From: a virus
Length of the DNA: 36,469 bases
Reading direction: 5' to 3' (one strand)
Virus record (IMG/VR): IMGVR_UViG_3300032006_000033
Span: 1-36,469 of that record
Shown here: piece after piece, positions 8,364-30,928 of the stretch
How positions within the stretch are numbered: the first letter of the stretch is position 1
Layout: each line of letters starts with the position of its first letter
Notes under the pieces: generated by a model
Databases searched by the model: none
What the model was told of the DNA's origin: nothing
Seen by the model: the letters and a program-made list of their open reading frames with translations, nothing else
Position numbers and translations under genes: made by a program

Positions 8364-11300
8364 ATGGCTACAAAGACTTTGCTCCCTGATTTAGAAGAGG
8401 AACAGCCACTTATTTCTGGCTTTGCTCAAACTCTTCTCCCTGATTTAAACGAAGAACAAGCACCTCTCCCTGGCCTAGAAGAACAAGCACCTCTCCCCGA
8501 GAAGGAACAAACTCTTCTTCCTGACCTGGAGGAAACATCTTTTCTGCGTGACCTAGATGATGAAGAGGCTCCTGAAATCAGCGGCGACCCAAGAGACGAG
8601 GGCTTTGGCTCCGTATTAAGCAGAACAGTTGACGAACTACAAGCAAGTGGTTGGGCTGGCGTGCGTGTATTGGGTGAAGTGTTTAACTCAGATAGGCTAA
8701 TTGATGCCGGTAATCGCGGCGTTGCCTTTAACGATCAACAAATAGCCAAACGTGGGCGTCCCATGATTGCCGAAGAAGTGGAAGACTTGGGCGATGCCAT
8801 GACTTTTATTAAACAAGGAATGGCACAAATCCTTCCCTCGGTTGCTGTTTCTATGCCCACAGCTATTGGGGGAGCCAAGGCGGGAGCCGCTTTGGGGACC
8901 TTTGCTGGACCCGCCGGAACCGCGGTTGGTGGTTTATTAGGCGGTGCTTTGGGTGCTTTCCTACCTTCTTTTGTGCTCAGTACCGGTGAGGTAGATCGTG
9001 AAATGAAGGCCAGAGCCGGGGAAGATTTTGAATCCCCTGGCGCAGCAATGGCAGGAGGAGCCATGGTCGCTTCCCTAGACGTTGCTTCAATTGCCTTTGG
9101 TCTTAAACCTTTAATGCCGGTTCTTTTAAAGAAAACAACCCTTAAAGAAGTCACCGATAAATTGGTGGCCGAAGGGGTAGAGAAGGGCGTGGCTAAAGCG
9201 GCAGTGGCGCAGGCGGTGAAAGCTTCTTTGGCGGAAGGCGTTACGGAAGCATCGCAAGAAGGGATCGAGGACTTTATGGCTGAAGCCGCAACCGGTTTGG
9301 CCAGTGAAGAAGGGCAGTTGCAAAGCGCTTTGCTCAACGCTTTCTTATTAGGAAGCATTGGTGGTGGAACACTAGGTAGCGTGTCCGGGGCCATCAGTCA
9401 ATACGGTGTTAATCAAAGGAAGAAAAGTGAGCGAGAAGTAAAAGAACAAATGGACCGTATAGAAGAAGAGGTGCAAAAAGAGGTCAATATCGCAGGACAA
9501 ACTTGGCAAGACATGTCCCGAGAAGAACTGATAGAAGGCGCCAAGCGCAGAAACATTAAGCTGAGAAAAAATGCCAGTAACGACAGCATTATAAAAGAAC
9601 TAACAAATTATGAAGTATTAAAAAGAAGGGCTCAACTACAGGCTAACTACTTCATGGAGAATTTTGGTGCCCTTACGGCTCAAGAAAAGCAAGAACGTCT
9701 CAATAGGCGCGAAGAGCTAAGAAACATGGATCGTAAAGAACTGCTGAAACTGGCCGACAGTAAGGTTTTAAAGGACGATGAGGGCGGTCCAGAGATGAAA
9801 CTTATTATAGTGAACAGGAAAGATTCCGACGCAGAAGTCATTAATAAAATACTGGACCAAGAACTGCTAGAAAAAAGAGCCCTTACAGGGGGTGCCTCTA
9901 TTATTTATGCGGCAGCACAAGAACCTAAATACATTGCGCGTTTGGAGCAACTAGAGCAACAGAGTCGCAAAGAGCTTTCACAAGAACTTAAAACCAGGGG
10001 GCTTACTGCCTCTATTGTAAAAGATGGTAAGAAGAAAACAGCCACCAACGAGGAGATGGCTAAGATGATTATGGACTTTGACACGTTTATGGTCTTGCAA
10101 AAAGAGCGCACACAAAATTATCTGCGTGGAGAGGGCTACAGTAAAGGTTATAAAAAACAAATACAAGCAAAAGGTCCTTTGGAAAACGTCAATTTTTATG
10201 AAATAGACGAGACCATGTTTGATAGAGAAGGGATGCAAGAAAAGTACGGTTCTTGGGAAGAGTTTGTGGAACAGAGTACAGGCGTAGACGGCGAAGCTGT
10301 TGCCATACGTTTTGCTGAGGACGGCACAGAAACATTGAACGAAGGCGACAACCTTCAGGTCGACCAAGACGGAACAAAGTTTGAAGTAAGAGATGTTCAA
10401 ACCGACGAAGAAGGAAACGTGGTCGGGGGCACAGGACTATTTAACAAATACGCGGGAGCTAAGGACCGCGCTGCCACAAACGTTCAAACCCTGCGCTTTG
10501 AAATGACTCCGGAAAATATTCGCCCAGCCAATTTTTTCGGGGGAATCATGGGTTCTCTTAAGCATTGGTTCGCACCAAGCGGACCACTAGGATGGGAAGC
10601 TTTCATGTTATCAAGAGACCGACTAGGGCGGATTCGCGCCATGAATAAAATGGCCAATCAAATGGGGGACAAGGTTAATATGGCTGTGGCAGCGGCTGTG
10701 GCTAATGGTAAGTTTTCTACGCCAGCAGCAGCGGAACAAGCGTTATCAAGTGCTTTGAGAAGAACCACTAAACGCTATAAAAGAGACGATGTGGAAATCG
10801 AGGAGTTGTGGGCAGAACGAGCATCGATTATGGCGGACATTAAGCAACAAAGAGCCAACATAGAGATGATGGAGTTGTTTAGAGACGGTAGTCTAGCTTA
10901 CGAAGAACTGTCGATAGAGCAGCAAGAGCAACTAAAACGTTTTAACACCAAACAAAACCTTGAAAACTTGCGGTTGCAGTTGATGATTTGGCGAGGAGAC
11001 CTAGAAGACGTCAACCAAATTCTTGCAGGCCAGTTTCGTGCGCTTCCTCGAGAAGAAAAACAGGCACTTAACCAAGAACAAAGGGCAATAATGAACAACA
11101 AAGAAAACGCTCTTCTGGCCCCAACCTCCGCGGCGTATGCTCTTCCAGAAGAACTGCGGGACTCTTTTCTTGAGCTTCGAGGCTTTATTGACATGATGAG
11201 TACACGGATATTAAGAGAAGTGCCGCAAGAAATTTTAGCCAGTAAAAAAGGCGGCAAGGCTTTGGGTGAAGTTATTCAGGAAAACATTGGTTCCTATATG

Positions 11301-13892: not shown

Positions 13893-14568
13893 ATTTTTCT
13901 AGCCGAGTGTTCCAGGCTTCTGCGGCACGCTCAAACTCTCTGCCTTCCAAAACAAACTCTTGATAAAAACAATCTACTGAGCACATCATAATCACACCTT
14001 TCTTAATCTCGGTGCCATAAACTTCGTTGTGTGCCATGGCATAGGCAGCGAGTTGTTGAAAATAATCCCAAACATAGCGCCTTCGTCTCTTAGGTGTGTT
14101 GGTTTGTTTAAAGTCCATGATAGCTTCTTCGCCTAAATGCCTACCAATCACATCAGCAGTGCCGGCATACTTCCCTGGGTAGTACAAAGGAATCTCACAC
14201 CCGTACACTTGGTCAATGGACGGAAACCCTTGGTCCATGATCGTACAGGCCATTTTATAGGCACGCTTTTGCTCTGGTGTTTCTGGATAATAGTCCCAAA
14301 TGCTGCCTTCTTTTAACTGTCTTTCAAGAATCTCGTGCATTTCGGTGCCTCTAGCTGCCGCTTCGTTTCGTATGCGTTCAGCTTCTTCCTTGCCCACCCG
14401 TTCAATCCACTGTTGTAGACTGTCGTTCTCCGCTTTGGTTTTAGAAAGAATCGTGGTAACAGAACTCAGTCGTTCTTCCCCGTTTAAATAAACACGACCC
14501 TTCTCCGTGGTCTCACGGGAAAGTTCAGCGTATTCATAGGGAGACGAAAAAAGAATCTCGTTCTTCAT
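13819..14568 (-). CDS. PD-(D/E)XK exonuclease (MGME1/RecB-like)
   Basis: A 249-aa protein with the core of the PD-(D/E)XK nuclease fold. RGTEMHEILE (His78) is the motif preceding the core in RecB/MGME1-like nucleases, CEIPLY (Glu125) is the next acidic site, GTADVIG (Asp139) the first catalytic Asp and EEAIMDFKQT (Asp152, Lys154) the D-x-K motif. WDYFQQLAAYAMA is the Q-x3-Y helix that follows in this group. It probably acts as a DNA exonuclease in replication, recombination or host DNA breakdown, like T7 gp6 in role. Last gene of the leftward operon; ATGA overlap with the peroxiredoxin gene. Its end overlaps the giant virion gene on the other strand. Confidence 0.85.
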   Translation of the reverse strand: MKNEILFSSPYEYAELSRETTEKGRVYLNGEERLSSVTTILSKTKAENDSLQQWIERVGKEEAERIRNEAAARGTEMHEILERQLKEGSIWDYYPETPEQKRAYKMACTIMDQGFPSIDQVYGCEIPLYYPGKYAGTADVIGRHLGEEAIMDFKQTNTPKRRRRYVWDYFQQLAAYAMAHNEVYGTEIKKGVIMMCSVDCFYQEFVLEGREFERAAEAWNTRLEKFIQSIQPPPLEQPQLEAETEEEDS

Positions 14569-15077
14569 GCAACAAACTCATCGCCAGGGGACCAAGAACA
14601 ACCTGTAAGACCCCCTGATTGTAGGGCCTTCAGCGTTCTTATAACTTCATCTACGTTTCTTCCTGTGTCCAAAGCATTGACCGATACATGTTGAACAATG
14701 TCTTCTGGATCCAGAATAAAGGTGGCTCTCAAGCAAACCCCCTCCTGTTGGTCAACGATACCGAGTTCATCAGATAAGGATAAACCACAGTCCGCAGCTA
14801 AAACGTGTCTAATTCTTCCAATAAGAGGTTCGGACAGCTTCCAATTAAGTTTACAGAACTCATTGTCTCCACTAACTCCTATAACATTCACGTCTTCGTC
14901 CACCAACCTGTCCATTTCAGCTATCTCGGTGGGACAGATAAAGGTAAAGTCTTTTGGGTAAAAATAAAACACACTCCAATGCTCAGACAAACTGTCGAAG
15001 TTTACGTCTATAATACTGTTGTCTTTGTCAACCCCTGTTAGAAAAAAATCAGGGAATGAATCGCCTACACTAATCAT
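14565..15077 (-). CDS. Peroxiredoxin (AhpC/TSA family)
   Basis: A 170-aa protein with the peroxiredoxin active site PKDFTFICPTE (P-x3-T-x2-C; peroxidatic Cys48) and the conserved Arg118 in LRATFILDP. A possible resolving cysteine is Cys160 in GGLTGCSW near the C-terminus, as in AhpC-type 2-Cys enzymes; Cys75, Cys97 and Cys115 are extra. It should reduce peroxides with thiol donors in the infected cell's cytoplasm. The catalytic set looks intact. It lies between a small basic gene and the exonuclease with ATGA overlaps on both sides, so it is an operon member and not a stray insertion. Probably a host-derived auxiliary metabolic gene; length is slightly short for AhpC (about 187 aa). Confidence 0.92.
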   Translation of the reverse strand: MISVGDSFPDFFLTGVDKDNSIIDVNFDSLSEHWSVFYFYPKDFTFICPTEIAEMDRLVDEDVNVIGVSGDNEFCKLNWKLSEPLIGRIRHVLAADCGLSLSDELGIVDQQEGVCLRATFILDPEDIVQHVSVNALDTGRNVDEVIRTLKALQSGGLTGCSWSPGDEFVA

Positions 15078-22526: not shown

Positions 22527-23972
22527 ATGAAAAACTATAAGTATCAAACGGAGCCTTACAAGCACCAAGAGAAGACGTTGGCCCGTTCAGCCTTTCGCAA
22601 AGAGTTTGCCCTCTTTTTAGAGATGGGCCTCGGCAAATCGAAAGTTCTCCTGGACAACGCCGCAGTGCTTTTTGAGGCCGACAAAATAAATGCGGTGTTA
22701 ATTATAACACCGAAAGGAAACTTAAGGAATTGGGACAAGAACGAAATACCAAAGCATTTGCCCGAACGAATCGAGAGGGAAGTGGTGGTGTGGCAACCCA
22801 ACCATACGCAGAAGTGGAAACAAGCCTATTGCGGCCTGGTTTTAGAGGAACACCCGGAAAGACTAGAGATTATGACGATGAATGTTGAAGCATTTTCCAC
22901 GGAAAAAGGGCTTAAATTTGCGCGAGCTTTTGTTTTAGGGCACGAAACCATGATTGCCGTGGACGAGAGCACCTTAATTAAGAACCCTAAAGCCAAGCGC
23001 ACCAAAAACTTATTGGGGTTGTCCCGAGAAGCCTCCTATAAAAGAATACTGACCGGGTTTCCTGTGACCAAAACACCTCTTGATCTATACGCGCAATGCG
23101 CTTTCCTTAATCCCTTATTATTAGGGTTCAAAAGTTATTATGCGTTCAAAGCACGATATGCGATTACTAAAATGCGGCGCATGGGCCACAACAGTTTTCA
23201 AGAAATCGTTGGGTATCATCGAATGGACGAACTGCAAGGCATGCTCAAAGAGTTCTCTGCTCGCTACACCAAGGACAAATGTTTAGATCTACCGGAAAAG
23301 GTTTACATGCAACGAAGCGTTGAGCTTAGTGATGAACAGAAAAAAGCCTATGAGCAGATGAGAAAAGAAGCGCTAATGATTATCGCGGACGAAGTGTACA
23401 CCACTCAAACGGTGCTGACTCAGTTAATGCGGCTGCAACAAATTGTTGCGGGAAGTCTGCGCGCACCTTCGGGGGAGGTCCAGGTGCTCAAGAACAACCG
23501 CATAGGAGAAACGCTTAATATATTGGAAGAAATCAGTGGTAAGGCCGTAGTTTTTGCGGTATTTCAAACAGACATAGAGCAGTTGACCAAGAAAATAGCC
23601 GAGGTTTATGGGGACGACAGCGTGGCTTCTTATTACGGGAAGACCTCACAAAAGGACCGGGAAACTATTCTTGATAACTTTCAAGACCCGGACCACCCGC
23701 TTCGATTCTTTGTCTCTAATCCGCACACCGGGGGCCGTGGACTGACCTTAACGGCGGCTTCTCACATGATTTTTTACTCCAACAGCTATGATTTAGAGCT
23801 AAGAATACAGGCAGAGGACCGGATTCACCGCATTGGACAAGACAAAAGCTGTACTTATATTGATCTGGTGTGTGAAAACACGGTGGACGAGAAAATTTTA
23901 GCGTCTTTAAAGAAAAAAGTGGACATATCCAATGAAGTTTTAGGGGAGGTACGACAATGGTTCGGGAAGTAA
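22527..23972 (+). CDS. SNF2-like superfamily 2 helicase/ATPase
   Basis: A 481-aa protein. Seen: YKHQEKTLARSAF (Q-like motif), LEMGLGKSKV (Walker A, residues 31-40), LIITPKGNLRNWDKNE (motif Ia), IAVDESTLIKN (motif II, DEST 146-149), RILTGFPVTKTPLDLYAQ (motif III), SNPHTGGRGLTLTAASHMIF (motif V) and QAEDRIHRIGQ (motif VI). This is the compact SNF2-type enzyme common in phages; it should translocate on double-stranded DNA. The ATG at 22527 has AAGGA 11 nt upstream and is preferred to a TTG at 22497. First gene of the rightward early operon; overlaps the RHH gene by 16 bp. Confidence 0.92.
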   Translation: MKNYKYQTEPYKHQEKTLARSAFRKEFALFLEMGLGKSKVLLDNAAVLFEADKINAVLIITPKGNLRNWDKNEIPKHLPERIEREVVVWQPNHTQKWKQAYCGLVLEEHPERLEIMTMNVEAFSTEKGLKFARAFVLGHETMIAVDESTLIKNPKAKRTKNLLGLSREASYKRILTGFPVTKTPLDLYAQCAFLNPLLLGFKSYYAFKARYAITKMRRMGHNSFQEIVGYHRMDELQGMLKEFSARYTKDKCLDLPEKVYMQRSVELSDEQKKAYEQMRKEALMIIADEVYTTQTVLTQLMRLQQIVAGSLRAPSGEVQVLKNNRIGETLNILEEISGKAVVFAVFQTDIEQLTKKIAEVYGDDSVASYYGKTSQKDRETILDNFQDPDHPLRFFVSNPHTGGRGLTLTAASHMIFYSNSYDLELRIQAEDRIHRIGQDKSCTYIDLVCENTVDEKILASLKKKVDISNEVLGEVRQWFGK

Positions 23973-24223
23973 AACAAAAAACACCAAAGCAAAAGGATAA
24001 AAAGGACACGCAAATAAATATCCGGCTCACGTCCATTGAAAAAAGGAACCTGGACATTATGAGTCGAAGACAGTGGCGCAGTTCCAGTGAGTTTGTCCGG
24101 CGGTTAATAAGTCGGGAATGGAAACGCGTTCGACAGAAGGAAGGCGCGGCTTCGATTGATGCCATGATCGATAGTTTTGAGTCCGGGGACCAAGGAGGAA
24201 AAGACGTTGGCGACATTTTTTAG
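23957..24223 (+). CDS. Ribbon-helix-helix DNA-binding protein
   Basis: An 88-aa protein. A basic tail (VKQKTPKQKDKKD) precedes an RHH-like core: strand TQINIRLTSIE, helix A KRNLDIMSRRQ, turn WRSSSE and helix B FVRRLISREWKRV. The tail after residue 66 is acidic. GGGGAGG lies 8 nt before the ATG and the gene overlaps the helicase gene, so the two are made together. A transcription regulator of the phage early genes is the likely role; its target is unknown. Confidence 0.72.
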   Translation: MVREVKQKTPKQKDKKDTQINIRLTSIEKRNLDIMSRRQWRSSSEFVRRLISREWKRVRQKEGAASIDAMIDSFESGDQGGKDVGDIF

Positions 24224-25557: not shown

Positions 25558-25628
25558 GCCGAGAAGAGATGTTTGCGCGTTTAGGAACGGCTCGTGTTGA
25601 GCCGGGGGAAATAACTCCCCCGGTTTAA
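25554..25628 (+). CDS. Possible 24-aa peptide ending the operon
   Basis: MSREEMFARLGTARVEPGEI then TPPV. It begins in an ATGA overlap with the DUF3310 gene, as is usual here, and GGAGGAGAAAAC lies upstream. The last codons are part of the terminator hairpin, so the gene may be a remnant or simply a fortuitous frame. Confidence 0.35.
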   Translation: MSREEMFARLGTARVEPGEITPPV

Positions 25629-25630
25629 TT
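25602..25630 (+). terminator. Hairpin terminator of the rightward early operon
   Basis: CCGGGGG (25602-25608) pairs with CCCCCGG (25617-25623) across an 8-nt loop, followed by TTTAATTT. Confidence 0.65.
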
Positions 25631-25640
25631 TCAGACAAAG

Positions 25641-25680
25641 AAAAACCCACACCAAATGAATGATGTGGGTTTTTTGTTTT
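25641..25680. terminator. Bidirectional terminator between convergent genes
   Basis: AAAAACCCACA (25641-25651) pairs perfectly with TGTGGGTTTTT (25664-25674). The T tract on one strand and the A tract on the other let it stop both the rightward early operon and the leftward metallopeptidase gene, whose last codons it adjoins. Confidence 0.85.
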
Positions 25681-26395
25681 AGCTTTGTTGACTTTCGTGT
25701 TCTTCGATTAGTTCTAAGGCTTTTTCTTTTGCCTCTTTCCAACCATAGCACCAGTAGTCTGAGTGCTCGATGTTTTCTTCGTCAACAAGGGTTTTGTCAT
25801 AGACCTCAATGTATGTATCACCTATGATCCAATCATCGTGGTATATGTGCAACCAATTGTGTTCCTCTGTCAACATCTGACATCTTTGTTTGGCTGAAAT
25901 CCTTTTCTTCTTAGGTTTTTCAACAATTGCGATTTCGGGAACAGTCTCAAAAGGTTTATGTCTCCTGGTGAGTTTATGTTTCCTTCTCCACTCATCGAAA
26001 CAATCGTGGCTAACTCTGAACTGATACATTGTTTCGCATAGTTCGTCGATGCTTGGCTGCTTCGGGTGAAAGATGTTGAGTAGGTTAGAGTAAGCACAAA
26101 CGAATTGTCGTCCGTGTAAGTCCTTTGTTAAAATGTGGGCGTATTCATGTAGGATTACTCCGTAATTCAAAGCCCACTTTTTTCTAAGGTGTATCTCAGA
26201 GCTACCTTTAGCATAAGAACCACCATAACCGCCTTTAAAAAAGATTTTGGTTTTGGTTTTAAAGACCTTATCTAATCTTTCGATTACTGATCTTACTTGT
26301 TCTTGTGTTAGATAGCTAACAAAGGGTTTAAACCATGGCTGAGATCGTTCCCAGTCATATACTCGCTTCCTTTGGAAGTCTCTTATTTTATTCAT
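25679..26395 (-). CDS. SprT-like zinc metallopeptidase
   Basis: A 238-aa protein with a zinc-protease helix VILHEYAHILTKDLHGRQFV: HExxH at 83-87 and a third candidate ligand His94, the arrangement of SprT-like and related minimal metallopeptidases. Upstream is a beta hairpin-like part (GGYGGSYAKGSSEIHL). The C-terminal half is basic (KPKKKRISAKQR) and then rich in Trp and His. It could cut host or phage proteins, possibly DNA-bound ones as SprT-family proteins do. It stands alone on its strand with its own promoter and terminator. GAGGT lies 9 nt before the ATG. Confidence 0.75.
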   Translation of the reverse strand: MNKIRDFQRKRVYDWERSQPWFKPFVSYLTQEQVRSVIERLDKVFKTKTKIFFKGGYGGSYAKGSSEIHLRKKWALNYGVILHEYAHILTKDLHGRQFVCAYSNLLNIFHPKQPSIDELCETMYQFRVSHDCFDEWRRKHKLTRRHKPFETVPEIAIVEKPKKKRISAKQRCQMLTEEHNWLHIYHDDWIIGDTYIEVYDKTLVDEENIEHSDYWCYGWKEAKEKALELIEEHESQQS

Positions 26396-26507
26396 AGTAG
26401 ATTTACCTCTTCAATAAATTAAAATTAAAGTTTTGCCGTTTCAGGTCTTTTGCTCATGGCTACTAGTTGTTAAAGATCGCTACTGTCACTGTTCTTGCTA
26501 CTCTTAT

Positions 26508-26525
26508 ATTATACCACCTGTCCCA
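26508..26525 (-). promoter_or_regulatory. Leftward promoter of the metallopeptidase with TGGGA motif
   Basis: On the minus strand TGGGACAGGTGGTATAAT: a perfect -10 (26508-26513) with TGGGA seven bases upstream, as in the rightward promoters at 34364-34392 and 34823-34852. The -35 hexamer is poor. The leader would be about 105 nt. Confidence 0.5.
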
Positions 26526-26661
26526 CAGCCCTTTGTTTACGGGGGTTTCGGGAGGGGTCTGTTTTTGAAATGATGGTAAAAAGAGGGGAAAGGACCGGGG
26601 ACCAGGGCCAAAAAGGGCTTCTTTTTTAGAATGAGTCTAAAAAGTCTTGTTGTTTTATGTG

Positions 26662-26694
26662 GGGTGTTTTGTTGTTGCGATACAACAAACACCC
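26662..26694. other. Strong hairpin in the long gene-free stretch
   Basis: GGGTGTTT-T-GTTGT (26662-26675) pairs with ACAACAAACACCC (26682-26694): 13 pairs with one bulged T and a 6-nt loop. No T tract follows on either strand. Candidate DNA site or RNA structure. The rest of 26396-26992 is AT-rich with short repeats and no credible gene. Confidence 0.55.
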
Positions 26695-26841
26695 AAAAAC
26701 CTCATTTCTACAAAAGTAGGACTGAGATAGGAATTAGGCCCCGGAGAAACCCTATATACAGTGTTTTTAACTAAACCTCATTTCTAAGTTCTATTTTCAC
26801 CATTTTTTGTTTTCAACTATCAAAACCAAAACCCTAATGTT

Positions 26842-26934
26842 CGACTGAGGAACTGAGGTTGCCCTCAAAGCCAGTGTCTATAAGGGTTTGAGTCTCAGTT
26901 TGACCGACTGAGGTTGAACTGAGAAACTGAGGTT
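26842..26934. repeat. ACTGAG(GTT) iterons upstream of terS
   Basis: ACTGAGG starts at 26844, AACTGAGGTT at 26851, the inverted CTCAGTT at 26894, ACTGAGGTT at 26907, AACTGAG at 26917 and AACTGAGGTT at 26925. Two diverged inverted copies (AACCTCATTTCT) lie near 26699 and 26774. Such iterons just before terS could be bound by the small terminase (pac or cos) or serve as an origin. Confidence 0.6.
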
Positions 26935-26964
26935 ACTTTTAATTACCTTTTTAGTGTAAAATAC

Positions 26965-26973
26965 TGTTATAAT
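26965..26973 (+). promoter_or_regulatory. Extended -10 promoter of terS
   Basis: TGTTATAAT is an extended -10 (TGn followed by a perfect TATAAT) with no good -35 box. Transcription would start close to the AAAGGAGG ribosome binding site at 26981, giving a very short leader. Confidence 0.6.
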
Positions 26974-26992
26974 CTATAAAAAAGGAGGCAAA

Positions 26993-27517
26993 ATGGGTGT
27001 TAAAGGACAAAAAGGACCTACTGGGTCCAACAATCCATCGGGGAAGAATGTTCGCCACTTGACCGATAAGCAAAAACGCTTTGCTAGGGAACTGGTCTAT
27101 AATGACGGCAGTAAAACCAAGACACAATGCGCCATTGACGCAGGTTATTCTAAAACCAGGGCCGGTGTTTCTGCGGCAGAACTAACCAACCCTAGAAAAT
27201 ACCCTTTAGTTGTTAGGTACATACAAGAACTCGAGGCCGAACTACAGCAAAAATTTGATGTCACTTTTTCTCGACACATAAGGAAACTGGCAGAAATTAG
27301 AGACCAGGCTATTGATAAAGGCAATCTCACCGCCGCCGTTTCTGCTGAGGTGCAACGAGGCCGTGCCGCCGGACTCTATGTAGAGAGAAAAGAAATAAGA
27401 ACAGGAACGCTTGAGTCCTTGTCTGAAAAAGAAATTAAACAGAAGATTGACGCACTGCTCGCTGACTATCAGCCTTTGCTTGAGGCCGAGGACGCTGTGT
27501 TTGAGGAAATAGAATGA
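26993..27517 (+). CDS. terS: Terminase small subunit
   Basis: A 174-aa protein of the Terminase_2 type. After a Gly/Lys-rich start comes LTDKQKRFARELVYNDGSKTK followed by QCAIDAGYSKTRAGVSAAEL, the helix-turn-helix domain typical of phage TerS, then NPRKYPLVVRYIQELEAEL and a helical oligomerisation part. It recognises the packaging site and works with the large subunit, which is not in this window. AAAGGAGG lies 4 nt before the ATG. Placing of terS apart from the virion block, after possible binding iterons, is notable. Confidence 0.88.
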   Translation: MGVKGQKGPTGSNNPSGKNVRHLTDKQKRFARELVYNDGSKTKTQCAIDAGYSKTRAGVSAAELTNPRKYPLVVRYIQELEAELQQKFDVTFSRHIRKLAEIRDQAIDKGNLTAAVSAEVQRGRAAGLYVERKEIRTGTLESLSEKEIKQKIDALLADYQPLLEAEDAVFEEIE

Positions 27518-27675
27518 TTCTTTATACAGAAGAACAATTACAGGACTGTTATAAAATATATTGTAGTCACCAAAGCCAACAGGACTTACCTTTTATGAAA
27601 CTTGCTGATTTTAGAAGAATGTTTGAGACTATTATGGAAAATCTGTACGAGTACAAGCAACTGAAAGAAAACTAA
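27514..27675 (+). CDS. Small protein coupled to terS (53 aa)
   Basis: Reads MILYTEEQLQDCYKIYCSHQ, SQQDLPFMKLADFRRMFETI, then MENLYEYKQLKEN. It starts in an ATGA overlap with the terS stop, so translation is probably coupled. It looks helical and lacks a known motif. Its last bases overlap the stop of the convergent gene by 4 bp. Confidence 0.65.
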   Translation: MILYTEEQLQDCYKIYCSHQSQQDLPFMKLADFRRMFETIMENLYEYKQLKEN

Positions 27676-27875
27676 AGCCCTGGTACTCGCCATTCCCACT
27701 CCTCTTCCTCTGTTTTTCTCCAACCTCTGTTAATAAGCTCGTTGGAAACCCTTAAGACTTCGTTCATATCTTCGGGGGGATTCTTTTTTAGCTGCTCGTA
27801 AGCTCTGAGAAGTTCGACATCGGTTAGTTCTATTAATTCAACATGAGGATAGAAGATCTCGTTTAGATAGTTCAT
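27672..27875 (-). CDS. Last gene of tiny-gene cluster, unknown (67 aa)
   Basis: MNYLNEIFYPHVELIELTDV and a helical rest (LLRAYEQLKKN, EVLRVSNELINRGW) with a Glu/Trp-rich end. It begins in a TAATG overlap and is the final member of the leftward cluster. No recognised domain. Confidence 0.6.
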   Translation of the reverse strand: MNYLNEIFYPHVELIELTDVELLRAYEQLKKNPPEDMNEVLRVSNELINRGWRKTEEEEWEWRVPGL

Positions 27876-28183
27876 TAGTCTTTGATGCCCATAACCTCTC
27901 TTGCGTACTTCTTAAACTCCGGAGTCATGCCCGTAGCCTCTTCAATAGGGGTTTTTTCATCGTATTCCTCCCAAGTGAACGATAGGCCCAAAGAATCTTG
28001 TATCTTGTTCACTATTCTTGGGTGACTGTCTGCGGGACAATCAATACATAGACGATAGCTTTTCTTTGCGCCTTTGATACCTATTTTTAAAAAAGGTAGG
28101 AGGTCGTGTAGTTGGTTTTGGTTTATGGCGGTCATTAAGTCTTTTGCTTGGTCTAACTCCAAGTGGGTTCTGTGTCTAATCAC
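27875..28183 (-). CDS. Tiny-cluster protein, unknown (102 aa, GTG start)
   Basis: I place the start at a GTG at 28183 (MIRHRTHLELDQAKDLMTAI) because GAGGAAAG lies 6 nt upstream and it gives the 8-bp overlap (GTGATTAG) seen elsewhere in this cluster; a TTG at 28198 is the alternative. The middle has GIKGAKKSYRLCIDCPADSH. No known domain is recognised. Confidence 0.6.
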   Translation of the reverse strand: MIRHRTHLELDQAKDLMTAINQNQLHDLLPFLKIGIKGAKKSYRLCIDCPADSHPRIVNKIQDSLGLSFTWEEYDEKTPIEEATGMTPEFKKYAREVMGIKD

Positions 28184-28403
28184 TTTTGCTTTCCTCAAAT
28201 TTATCGACTACAAACTGGTGGTTTTTTCTGAAGTAGGAAAAAATGTTTTTGTATTCTTTTTGCCCGTGTTCCCTTCTCTCTTTACAGTTTGCGTCATACA
28301 TATCCCTTACAAACATTTTGAAACTAGGGTCATTATATTGTGTGGGCCTTTTAGGGAATAGTTCTCGTTGTTCCCATTCTTGCTTTCGCCATATTTTAGT
28401 CAT
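28176..28403 (-). CDS. Tiny-cluster protein with QRELF motif (75 aa)
   Basis: MTKIWRKQEWEQRELFPKRP then a helical, charged rest. The ATG at 28403 gives an 8-bp overlap (ATGACTAA) with the preceding gene; a longer form from 28484 would overlap it deeply. QRELF at 12-16 resembles, but does not match fully, the sliding-clamp-binding motif. Confidence 0.6.
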   Translation of the reverse strand: MTKIWRKQEWEQRELFPKRPTQYNDPSFKMFVRDMYDANCKERREHGQKEYKNIFSYFRKNHQFVVDKFEESKSD

Positions 28404-28599
28404 TGTTCTCTCCGTTAATAAAAATCTCATTAAATGATTGCTCAAACTTCTCCGTTTGTCCAGTAAATCGTTGTTTTGAATCACTTTCTTTTGCGTATAA
28501 GCCGTCTATGTCTCCCGCATACCCGTCACACAAATAAAGACTGTTTTCCTCTTCGTTCGGACAGTTTCCTCCACAATACCTACAAACTATGTTCTTCAT
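28396..28599 (-). CDS. Tiny-cluster protein with cysteine cluster (67 aa)
   Basis: MKNIVCRYCGGNCPNEEENS then LYLCDGYAGDIDG. Cys6, Cys9, Cys13 and Cys24 could bind zinc. It starts in an ATGA overlap and ends in an 8-bp overlap. Function unknown. Confidence 0.6.
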   Translation of the reverse strand: MKNIVCRYCGGNCPNEEENSLYLCDGYAGDIDGLYAKESDSKQRFTGQTEKFEQSFNEIFINGENND

Positions 28600-28799
28600 C
28601 GTTCATCGTACTCCTTATCTGTTCGTTCATCTGCCAAGAAACCTTCAGATAAAGTTCCAACAATGTCGCTTTTGTCCCACGGAATTTCGCACCATTCTCC
28701 ATTTCTGCAAACATGTATAGTAGTGTTTTCAATCTCATCTTCTTCAACACATATCCCCGTTATATCTAACAGATAGGTTTTTCCTTCAGCACTATTCAT
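28596..28799 (-). CDS. Tiny-cluster protein, unknown (67 aa)
   Basis: MNSAEGKTYLLDITGICVEE, with a strand-rich part (TTIHVCRNGEWCEIPWD). The ATG at 28799 makes an 8-bp overlap (ATGAATAG) with the preceding gene and is preferred to the GTG at 28802. Acidic; no known domain. Confidence 0.6.
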   Translation of the reverse strand: MNSAEGKTYLLDITGICVEEDEIENTTIHVCRNGEWCEIPWDKSDIVGTLSEGFLADERTDKEYDER

Positions 28800-28974
28800 C
28801 ACCCACCTCCGCTTTTAACCATATGATTAAATGACTAATGTAGGCAATTTCCCCAATCAACTGATCTCGTTCCTCTTGATTGGCCAGTCCATTCCCTATA
28901 AGTCTCTTTAGTGATTTGTTCTCGTCCTCTCTTAGTTTTTCAAGGAGTTTGTGTTCGTTTATACTTCTACTCAT
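28792..28974 (-). CDS. Tiny-cluster protein, unknown (60 aa)
   Basis: MSRSINEHKLLEKLREDENK then helices (LIGEIAYISHLIIWLKAEV) ending GDE. Both ends use the 8-bp overlap. The last helix is hydrophobic enough to pack in a helical bundle. No known domain. Confidence 0.6.
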   Translation of the reverse strand: MSRSINEHKLLEKLREDENKSLKRLIGNGLANQEERDQLIGEIAYISHLIIWLKAEVGDE

Positions 28975-29149
28975 CAGACACCTCCTCTAAATCTTCAATA
29001 TCTAATCCTTCTGCTAAGTATGTGCAATCTGTTTCTGCTCTGTATGTAATTACTTTCCCATTTTCATCTTTGAGTTCGTTTCCGTCATCATCTAGCCTAT
29101 AGAAAGTTAAGTCCCATACCGCTATATTATCGTAATTATTTTTACTCAT
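28967..29149 (-). CDS. Tiny-cluster protein, unknown (60 aa)
   Basis: MSKNNYDNIAVWDLTFYRLD, then DDGNELKDENGKVITYRAET and an acidic end DIEDLEEVSDE. The ATG at 29149 is preferred to an upstream start at 29158 as it gives the 8-bp overlap. The end closely resembles residues inside the protein at 29798-30049. Strand-rich, no known domain. Confidence 0.6.
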   Translation of the reverse strand: MSKNNYDNIAVWDLTFYRLDDDGNELKDENGKVITYRAETDCTYLAEGLDIEDLEEVSDE

Positions 29150-29369
29150 CAGACACACCCTCTAATTCCTTTCTCAGTAATCTGATTTCTTCTCTATAAT
29201 CTCTCTGGCCTATCTCACAAATTTCCTTGAATGTTTTTGCATTAGCTAAACACTCAAGGTCGGCCAAACAATCTTCCACGCAACCATGTTGAAACGAATC
29301 AAAAACATGTTGTTCGATTAATACATACCACCTATCTTCAACTGCTTTTCTCATTGTTGGTTCACTCAT
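29142..29369 (-). CDS. Tiny-cluster protein, unknown (75 aa)
   Basis: MSEPTMRKAVEDRWYVLIEQ, then HVFDSFQHGCVEDCLADLEC and LRKELEGVSDE. A helical protein with three cysteines. It begins in a TGATG overlap and ends in an 8-bp overlap. The HVFDSFQHG stretch might be informative in a search; I do not recognise it. Confidence 0.6.
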   Translation of the reverse strand: MSEPTMRKAVEDRWYVLIEQHVFDSFQHGCVEDCLADLECLANAKTFKEICEIGQRDYREEIRLLRKELEGVSDE

Positions 29370-30511: not shown

Positions 30512-30928
30512 TTGGCGAAACTGGAAACAAATTTTTGGAAACAGATCAAGAACAACCTAACGGATTTTCAATGGGTTAGGCTAGAGTCTTGGGCTACAAA
30601 AGGTGTACCAGATGTTATGGGCTTTACTAAGGACGGAAAGATCTTTACGGTTGAGTTAAAAGTAACCAAAAGTAGATCGGTTTATTTTTCCCCTCATCAG
30701 ATCGCCTTTCATGTTGAGCATGAAAACTCACCCTGTTTTATCTTGGTCAAGGCCCTCTCTCCTTCATCACCTAAAAAATATGGGATATACCTCTTTCATG
30801 CTAAACAAGTGCGTCAGATCGTGGAACAAGGGCTTGATGCCTCTGCACGATATAGCACCTTGTCCCCTGTCAACTGGTCCGTTGTCCGTGATTCCCTGTT
30901 GACTGAGCTTGATGCCCTTGCACGATAA
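30512..30928 (+). CDS. VRR-NUC/PD-(D/E)XK-type nuclease (TTG start)
   Basis: A 138-aa protein starting at a TTG (MAKLETNFWKQIKNNL) with AAGGA 9 nt upstream. GVPDVMGFTKDG and IFTVELKVTKS carry the catalytic PD-x(n)-ExK set (Asp34, Glu48, Lys50) of the VRR-NUC/Holliday-junction-resolvase-like fold. It may cut branched DNA, the task of T7 endonuclease I. The last 33 codons (LDASARYSTLSPV onwards) are flanked by two copies of the local DNA repeat and resemble degenerate terminator sequence, so the original stop may have been earlier. Confidence 0.8.
   Translation: MAKLETNFWKQIKNNLTDFQWVRLESWATKGVPDVMGFTKDGKIFTVELKVTKSRSVYFSPHQIAFHVEHENSPCFILVKALSPSSPKKYGIYLFHAKQVRQIVEQGLDASARYSTLSPVNWSVVRDSLLTELDALAR
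30833..30927 (+). repeat. Two repeat copies inside the nuclease gene end
   Basis: CTTGATGCCTCTGCACGATA (30833-30852) and CTTGATGCCCTTGCACGATA (30908-30927) differ at two positions. They match the intergenic repeat CTTGTCGCCTTTGCATGATA at most positions. Between them lies GTCCCCTGTC with TCCGTGATTCCCTG, similar to the terminator at 31267. Confidence 0.75.

Follow-up and report, generated by a model that had tools for sequence, protein, structure and literature searches.

The window, by which we mean the entire 36,469-bp linear virus record from IMG/VR (G000), carries a repeat cassette of about 250 bp directly upstream of its small-terminase gene, terS. We propose that it is a cis-acting site, present in one copy and linked to terS, and that it is most likely a pac-type packaging-initiation region of SPP1-like organisation, a reading to which we give about half our confidence. 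A sequence-only reading had suggested a packaging or origin site at this position. Packaging is the best supported part of that suggestion, since cassette and terS remain together throughout the family, and a pac-type site is preferred because the place of the cassette, its repeats and the TerS type match those of SPP1 pac as given in the available text of PMC4737164.

Five direct copies and one inverted copy of ACTGAG within 93 bp, the starting observation of the earlier reading, were confirmed and span 26844–26931, with the hexamer on the plus strand at 26844, 26852, 26907, 26918 and 26926 and the inverted CTCAGT at 26894; an extra direct copy lies outside this array at 26721. The diverged inverted copies that had been placed near 26699 and 26774 were located as AATGAGGTT at 26698–26706 and 26774–26782, and the exact 9-mer ACTGAGGTT is found only at 26852, 26907 and 26926. 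The unusual feature is the clustering of the copies, which is beyond chance. Six non-overlapping copies of one hexamer fall within 93 bp. When the surrounding 597-bp gap was put through 2000 dinucleotide shuffles, no hexamer exceeded four copies (five were reached in 0/2000); among 1785 stretches of 113 bp sampled from the rest of the window, two also reached six, with other hexamers. With up to one mismatch allowed, the 9-mer is not enriched across the window (11 occurrences versus 9.4 expected). The gap itself (26396–26992, 597 bp) is indeed the longest non-coding stretch of the window in our own gene list, the runner-up being 246 bp.

The site is larger than the 93 bp first noted, since the array forms the right-hand part of a cassette that extends over about 250 bp (Table 1), and the class-A octamers ACTGAGGT and AACTGAGG have no exact occurrence in the window outside it. 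In one relative, L007, the palindrome of the left arm is longer and perfect. In 11 of 17 contigs the cassette had the highest predicted curvature of all gaps of at least 140 bp; curvature was not exceptional in class C (0/3 contigs) or in contigs G001, G037 and G043.

Table 1. Features of the cassette and candidate partner genes in the window.
Feature	Position	Strand	Basis
Arc-like ribbon-helix-helix protein, class A only; candidate operator-binding protein	23957..24223	+	Record search
Entire single-copy cassette, comprising left arm, inner repeats and right array with two TATA/GGGTTT boxes	26690..26950	.	Sequence; layout recurs in relatives
Left arm: inverted unit AACCTCAT, CTAC-AAAA-GTAG hairpin, direct ACTGAG at 26721	26698..26726	.	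Sequence
Left box CCCTATATAC, inverted counterpart of right box	26750..26759	.	Sequence
Inner inverted unit(s) AACCTCATTTCTAAGTT	26774..26790	-	Sequence
Two direct units ACTGAGGA / ACTGAGGTT	26844..26860	+	Sequence
Right box TATAAGGGTTT	26879..26889	+	Precedes arrays of all classes
Inverted unit GTCTCAGT, fixed distance (2 nt) after right box	26892..26899	-	Register comparison
Direct unit 1 ACTGAGGT, 7 nt past inverted unit	26907..26914	+	Register comparison
Direct unit 2 ACTGAGAA, 11 bp beyond unit 1	26918..26925	+	Register comparison
Direct unit 3 ACTGAGGT, 19 bp beyond unit 1	26926..26933	+	Register comparison
terS, small terminase; HTH region about aa 23–90	26993..27517	+	Pfam Terminase_2, PHROG, structure alignment
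PD-(D/E)XK nuclease, Holliday-junction-resolvase/VRR-NUC-like, 138 aa; candidate reader or partner	30512..30928	+	Sequence, structure prediction

A cassette of ~250 bp upstream of terS was found across a large IMG/VR family. IMG/VR was searched three times with terS, keeping the best 80 of 223, the best 80 of 225 and the best 80 of 170 relatives; at least 181 terS loci could be read, among them 98 different pairings of upstream sequence and terS. Six motif classes were recognised among the matches listed, using hexamer counts chosen after the motifs had been seen, so that the assignment was not blind; L172, L222 and L187, which have no readable motif in the upstream stretch, were excluded from the class counts. 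The window belongs to class A, with the unit ACTGAG. The units of the other classes are TCTAAG/T/C (class B), AGTTAG and GTTAGA (class C), GGTGCG with GGTTAG/T (class D), GGTGAG with C-type copies (class E) and CATTAG/T (class F). By our own reading, base 3 of the hexamer is always T and base 5 always A, except in the class-D unit GGTGCG, while bases 1, 2 and 4 mark the class. A conserved GGT end of the unit was considered as a rule and dropped, positions 6–8 varying even within arrays.

The architecture around these different units is shared. In all six classes a near-register array follows a conserved TATA(A/G)GGGTTT box, consisting of an inverted unit, ~7 nt and a direct unit, usually with further direct copies, and the position of the left box is occupied by CCCTATA or CCTATA in classes A–F. 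The first units after the box lie at matching offsets in classes A, B, D and F, with direct copies at +11 and +19 or +20; the second step is shorter in classes C and E. When units were compared at fixed offsets, the inverted and first direct unit of the same array had 5.15 of their 8 bases in common (33 distinct triplets) and those of different classes 2.97, the within-array figure being lowered by a one-base register shift in class D; the right box was unrecognisable in 11 of the listed loci. The units have thus been rewritten lineage by lineage, all copies of a class together. Such concerted change points to a protein that reads the copies; independent drift would not be expected to yield it. 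Across 37 contigs longer than 12 kb, class units occur at 1–12 places inside the cassette and at 0–4 outside, and a scan outside the cassette for single sites at a regulated gene found scattered matches only. The class-D cassette of contig G036 (L258, about 14527–14540) also holds, beside its left repeat arm, TTTATCCAC, which we take to be a near match to the DnaA-box consensus.

That the cassette stands directly before terS, as first read, is borne out by the identity of the downstream ORF, which matches Pfam Terminase_2 (32.3 bits, cut-off 26.1), the PHROG terS family and, weakly, the SF6 small terminase structures 3zqp, 4zc3 and 2cmp (E 0.0035–0.0046). By these matches the protein belongs among the SF6/SPP1-type small terminases. 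Most cassettes were found by searching upstream of terS, a bias that is corrected only for arrays fitting the pattern of a separate IMG/VR scan, which avoided it by using architecture alone (box, ACCT, spacing, KGT) and returned 56 stretches. terS lies downstream in 53 of the 56, in 52 of them at 96–183 bp after the match start and in L323 at 861 bp from it, with a gene inserted between; L310, L326 and L339 (3/56) have no cassette and look like chance matches. The scan covers part of the family only, because its pattern favours classes A, D and F. The insertion in L323 (about 8560–9330, read on the minus strand) is an ORF that looks by eye like a PAPS-reductase type, lying between a class-D cassette and terS.

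The mechanism implied at the outset, in which TerS reads the ACTGAG copies, is unsupported as stated, since identical recognition helices go with different motifs. The helix GKSSAHVRASEL is common to classes B and D and the helix AESSAAVRASEL to classes C and E, and class B combines one motif with three TerS helix types. Between classes A and B the N-domain of TerS is 77–78% identical and the C part 93–96%, a contrast initially read as a sign that iterons and HTH move as a pair; as a code, the recognition helix fitted A versus B alone and failed on the helices shared by B/D and C/E. This lack of correspondence between helix and motif is in line with Greive et al., and for SF6 TerS the HTH itself is credited with little local sequence specificity in the available portion of PMC4737164. 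TerS is the obvious candidate for the reader; it probably contributes by shape and ring contacts.

The rival suggestion of an origin was weighed against the same cassette. At an iteron-type origin an initiator would bind the units, melt AT-rich DNA and load PolA, AEP-primase and helicase, initiator and iterons changing together, which we consider fairly unlikely. Such an origin is consistent with direct and inverted 8-bp units in one array, with their AT-rich surroundings and with one copy per contig, and the change between classes A and B goes with divergent gp34-like (45–49%) and SNF2 (67–68%) proteins at 82–84% core identity. Swapping of origins and DNA-binding domains also has a precedent in the PLE ori/RepA_N pair and the origin-directed nuclease Odn, as described in the accessible part of PMC8263062. 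The GC-skew check that the earlier reading had named gave a mixed answer: raw skew tracks gene strand; after strand correction, third-position skew shifts at the cassette in the class A and B contigs sampled and in two of three class F contigs, but in none of classes C and D. Among the 32 distinct window proteins compared with Pfam and/or PHROGs no initiator family was found, most of the small ones being matchless; the cassette contains no exact match to a relaxed DnaA box; and a tie to terS is not expected of an origin.

An operator at which a phage regulator would control transcription of terS, and perhaps also leftward transcription, is in our view distinctly unlikely. The cassette does lie upstream of terS, and class A offers a candidate regulator in the Arc-like protein, whose gene was present in 5/5 class-A records and 0/17 records of classes B–F, where PF01402 gave only matches below the cut-off. 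Arc-like proteins bind short repeated half-sites. However, the same array is kept by other classes that have no Arc-like gene, the inserted gene of L323 sits between the cassette and terS, and a consensus scan directly ahead of terS gave no promoter-like match.

The gene that follows the motif classes most closely in identity comparisons is a linked nuclease. The protein contains a PD-(D/E)XK site (GxPD...ExK) and the VRR-NUC glutamine, with P32, D33, E47, K49 and Q62 invariant across 13 aligned sequences. Its AlphaFold model (pLDDT 90.7) resembles Hjc (Foldseek probability 0.99) and the VRR_NUC structure 4qbn (0.97), with nothing at E≤0.001, and its match to Pfam Hjc is below the cut-off. Among 18 gene families present in at least 18 of 49 contigs, nuclease identity best separated same-class from different-class pairs (AUC 0.999 with C–E pairs omitted; 0.65–0.98 for the others). 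In the 16 contigs holding all compared genes, nucleases are 36–57% identical between classes at any core identity from 63 to 84%, and 66–100% identical within them. A homologue lies near terS in 4/4 named relatives, just upstream in HTVC027P and 023Pt_psg01, where the ORFs are unannotated (L119:14231–14542 and L121:14570–14851, respectively; minus strand); in 023Pt_psg01, AACGTGA repeats lie between the nuclease gene and terS.

These data would fit an enzyme that reads the unit of its own class, whether it serves packaging, serves replication or excludes other classes in the manner of a homing enzyme, a possibility we regard as improbable. The match between nuclease and class is confounded because all gene trees group each class almost as a clade: on the trees of all seven genes tried, PolA included, the labels require no more than one step beyond the minimum. 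There are only about five class transitions, shared by all genes, and topology singles out no gene; tree-based covariation was accordingly abandoned as a way to pick the reader. Moreover, the motifs of classes C and E differ, yet their nucleases are 69–87% identical, and the 138-aa protein has no evident separate DNA-binding domain. Stand-alone VRR-NUC/Hjc enzymes resolve junctions, according to the available text of PMC4103454, and such enzymes need not read sequence. Other routes to a reader were also set aside. The SNF2 and gp34-like genes separate A from B, but separate C from D little beyond core genes, and the HTVC023P clade, in which TerS and nuclease vary but the unit remains CTAGGAA or close to it, was not decisive. 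A further reading seems to us improbable: an arms race or lineage exclusion would rewrite the address code, changing the units of about 6–8 bp in every copy at once with spacing, boxes and the TerS core kept, and the nuclease rather than TerS would read the code and perform or license the initial cut for packaging (or replication). If true, the packaging addresses of sister phages sharing a water mass would be mutually exclusive.

Returning to the preferred pac-type reading, a phage protein would read the 6–8-bp units base-specifically, the nucleoprotein complex on the cassette would recruit TerS and TerL, and the terminase would make its first cut near the cassette after this recruitment. How small terminases choose their own genome is poorly defined, and the cassette family offers a natural experiment, with one architecture, six spellings and closely related TerS proteins, in which swaps of cassette or reader between classes would reveal the protein that carries packaging specificity. 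An exclusive code would explain how co-occurring related marine phages avoid packaging each other's DNA. A survey of work on iterons and terminases, pelagiphage terS repeats and pac covariation, whose coverage mostly excludes subscription papers, found no description of the site, and the available text of a paper on HTVC023P (PMC9599517) showed nothing on terminal repeats, permutation or origins.

The window itself is a fragment of a marine HTVC023P-like phage, because its PolA and TerS match (at 49–54% and 30–50% identity, respectively) HTVC023P, HTVC027P, 023Pt_psg01 and DSL-LC04, phages with genomes of 57–62 kb. TerL is absent from the window in our own gene reading; in relatives it lies ~7 kb from terS, a point against the pac-type reading. 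Annotated phage records contained no direct DNA relative of 25600–28500, and Rfam and tRNA scans of the window gave no match. Mosaicism is strong: 1–2606 and 27236–29369 share several genes at 97–100% identity with the class-B contig G003, and in the same comparison the gp34-like gene is just 47% and SNF2 68% identical. The replication operon includes a gene for an AhpC/TSA-family peroxiredoxin (14565–15077, minus strand), possibly an auxiliary metabolic gene. Between the DUF3310 gene and the cassette lies an ORF (25679–26395, minus strand) that matches nothing in Pfam or PHROGs; its HEYAH motif resembles HExxH, and metalloprotease-like is a guess by eye.

Among known systems, the HTVC023P-type pelagiphages (HTVC023P, HTVC027P and 023Pt_psg01) and DSL-LC04 share relatives of PolA, primase and TerS with the window, and repeats also stand ahead of terS in some of them, with CTAGGAA units in HTVC023P and AACGTGA or AACGTAA in some 023Pt relatives. 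Their unit sequences are different from those of the cassette and their PolA and TerS are no closer than the identities given above. HTVC027P carries CAAGC-type repeat runs upstream of terS (L119:13029–14271; seven copies of a 37-nt unit) that are unlike the cassette. In DSL-LC04 a 36-nt inverted repeat (83%) lies beside CTATAGG boxes, ahead of the small genes that precede terS (L120:14116–14318), and is possibly a distant form of the cassette.

The cosB region of lambda contains repeated R sites, and the cassette likewise has short repeated sites, inverted and direct, near terS. Lambda-type cos sites extend over ~200 bp with subsites, as the available text of PMC4669245 has it. In contrast to these, the terS here is of another type. 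The PLE origin with RepA_N, and Odn of ICP1, resemble the cassette in that a repeat address and its DNA-binding partner change together, and Odn illustrates that a nuclease can be directed to iterons (both from the accessible part of PMC8263062). The PLE site, however, is a satellite origin with a known initiator, whereas the cassette is tied to terS and no initiator was found in the window. The closest parallel for a packaging site is SPP1/SF6 pac with gp1, where direct repeats likewise stand just ahead of and at a Terminase_2-type terS. The DNA of SPP1 pac is bent; for the cassette, bending is a prediction that singles it out in 11 of 17 contigs and not in class C. The repeats of SPP1/SF6 pac are only moderately conserved between relatives, according to the portion of PMC4737164 available. 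The cassette differs from pac in that TerL is not adjacent to terS, and it adds inverted units and a near-fixed register in which all copies switch together, in six classes.
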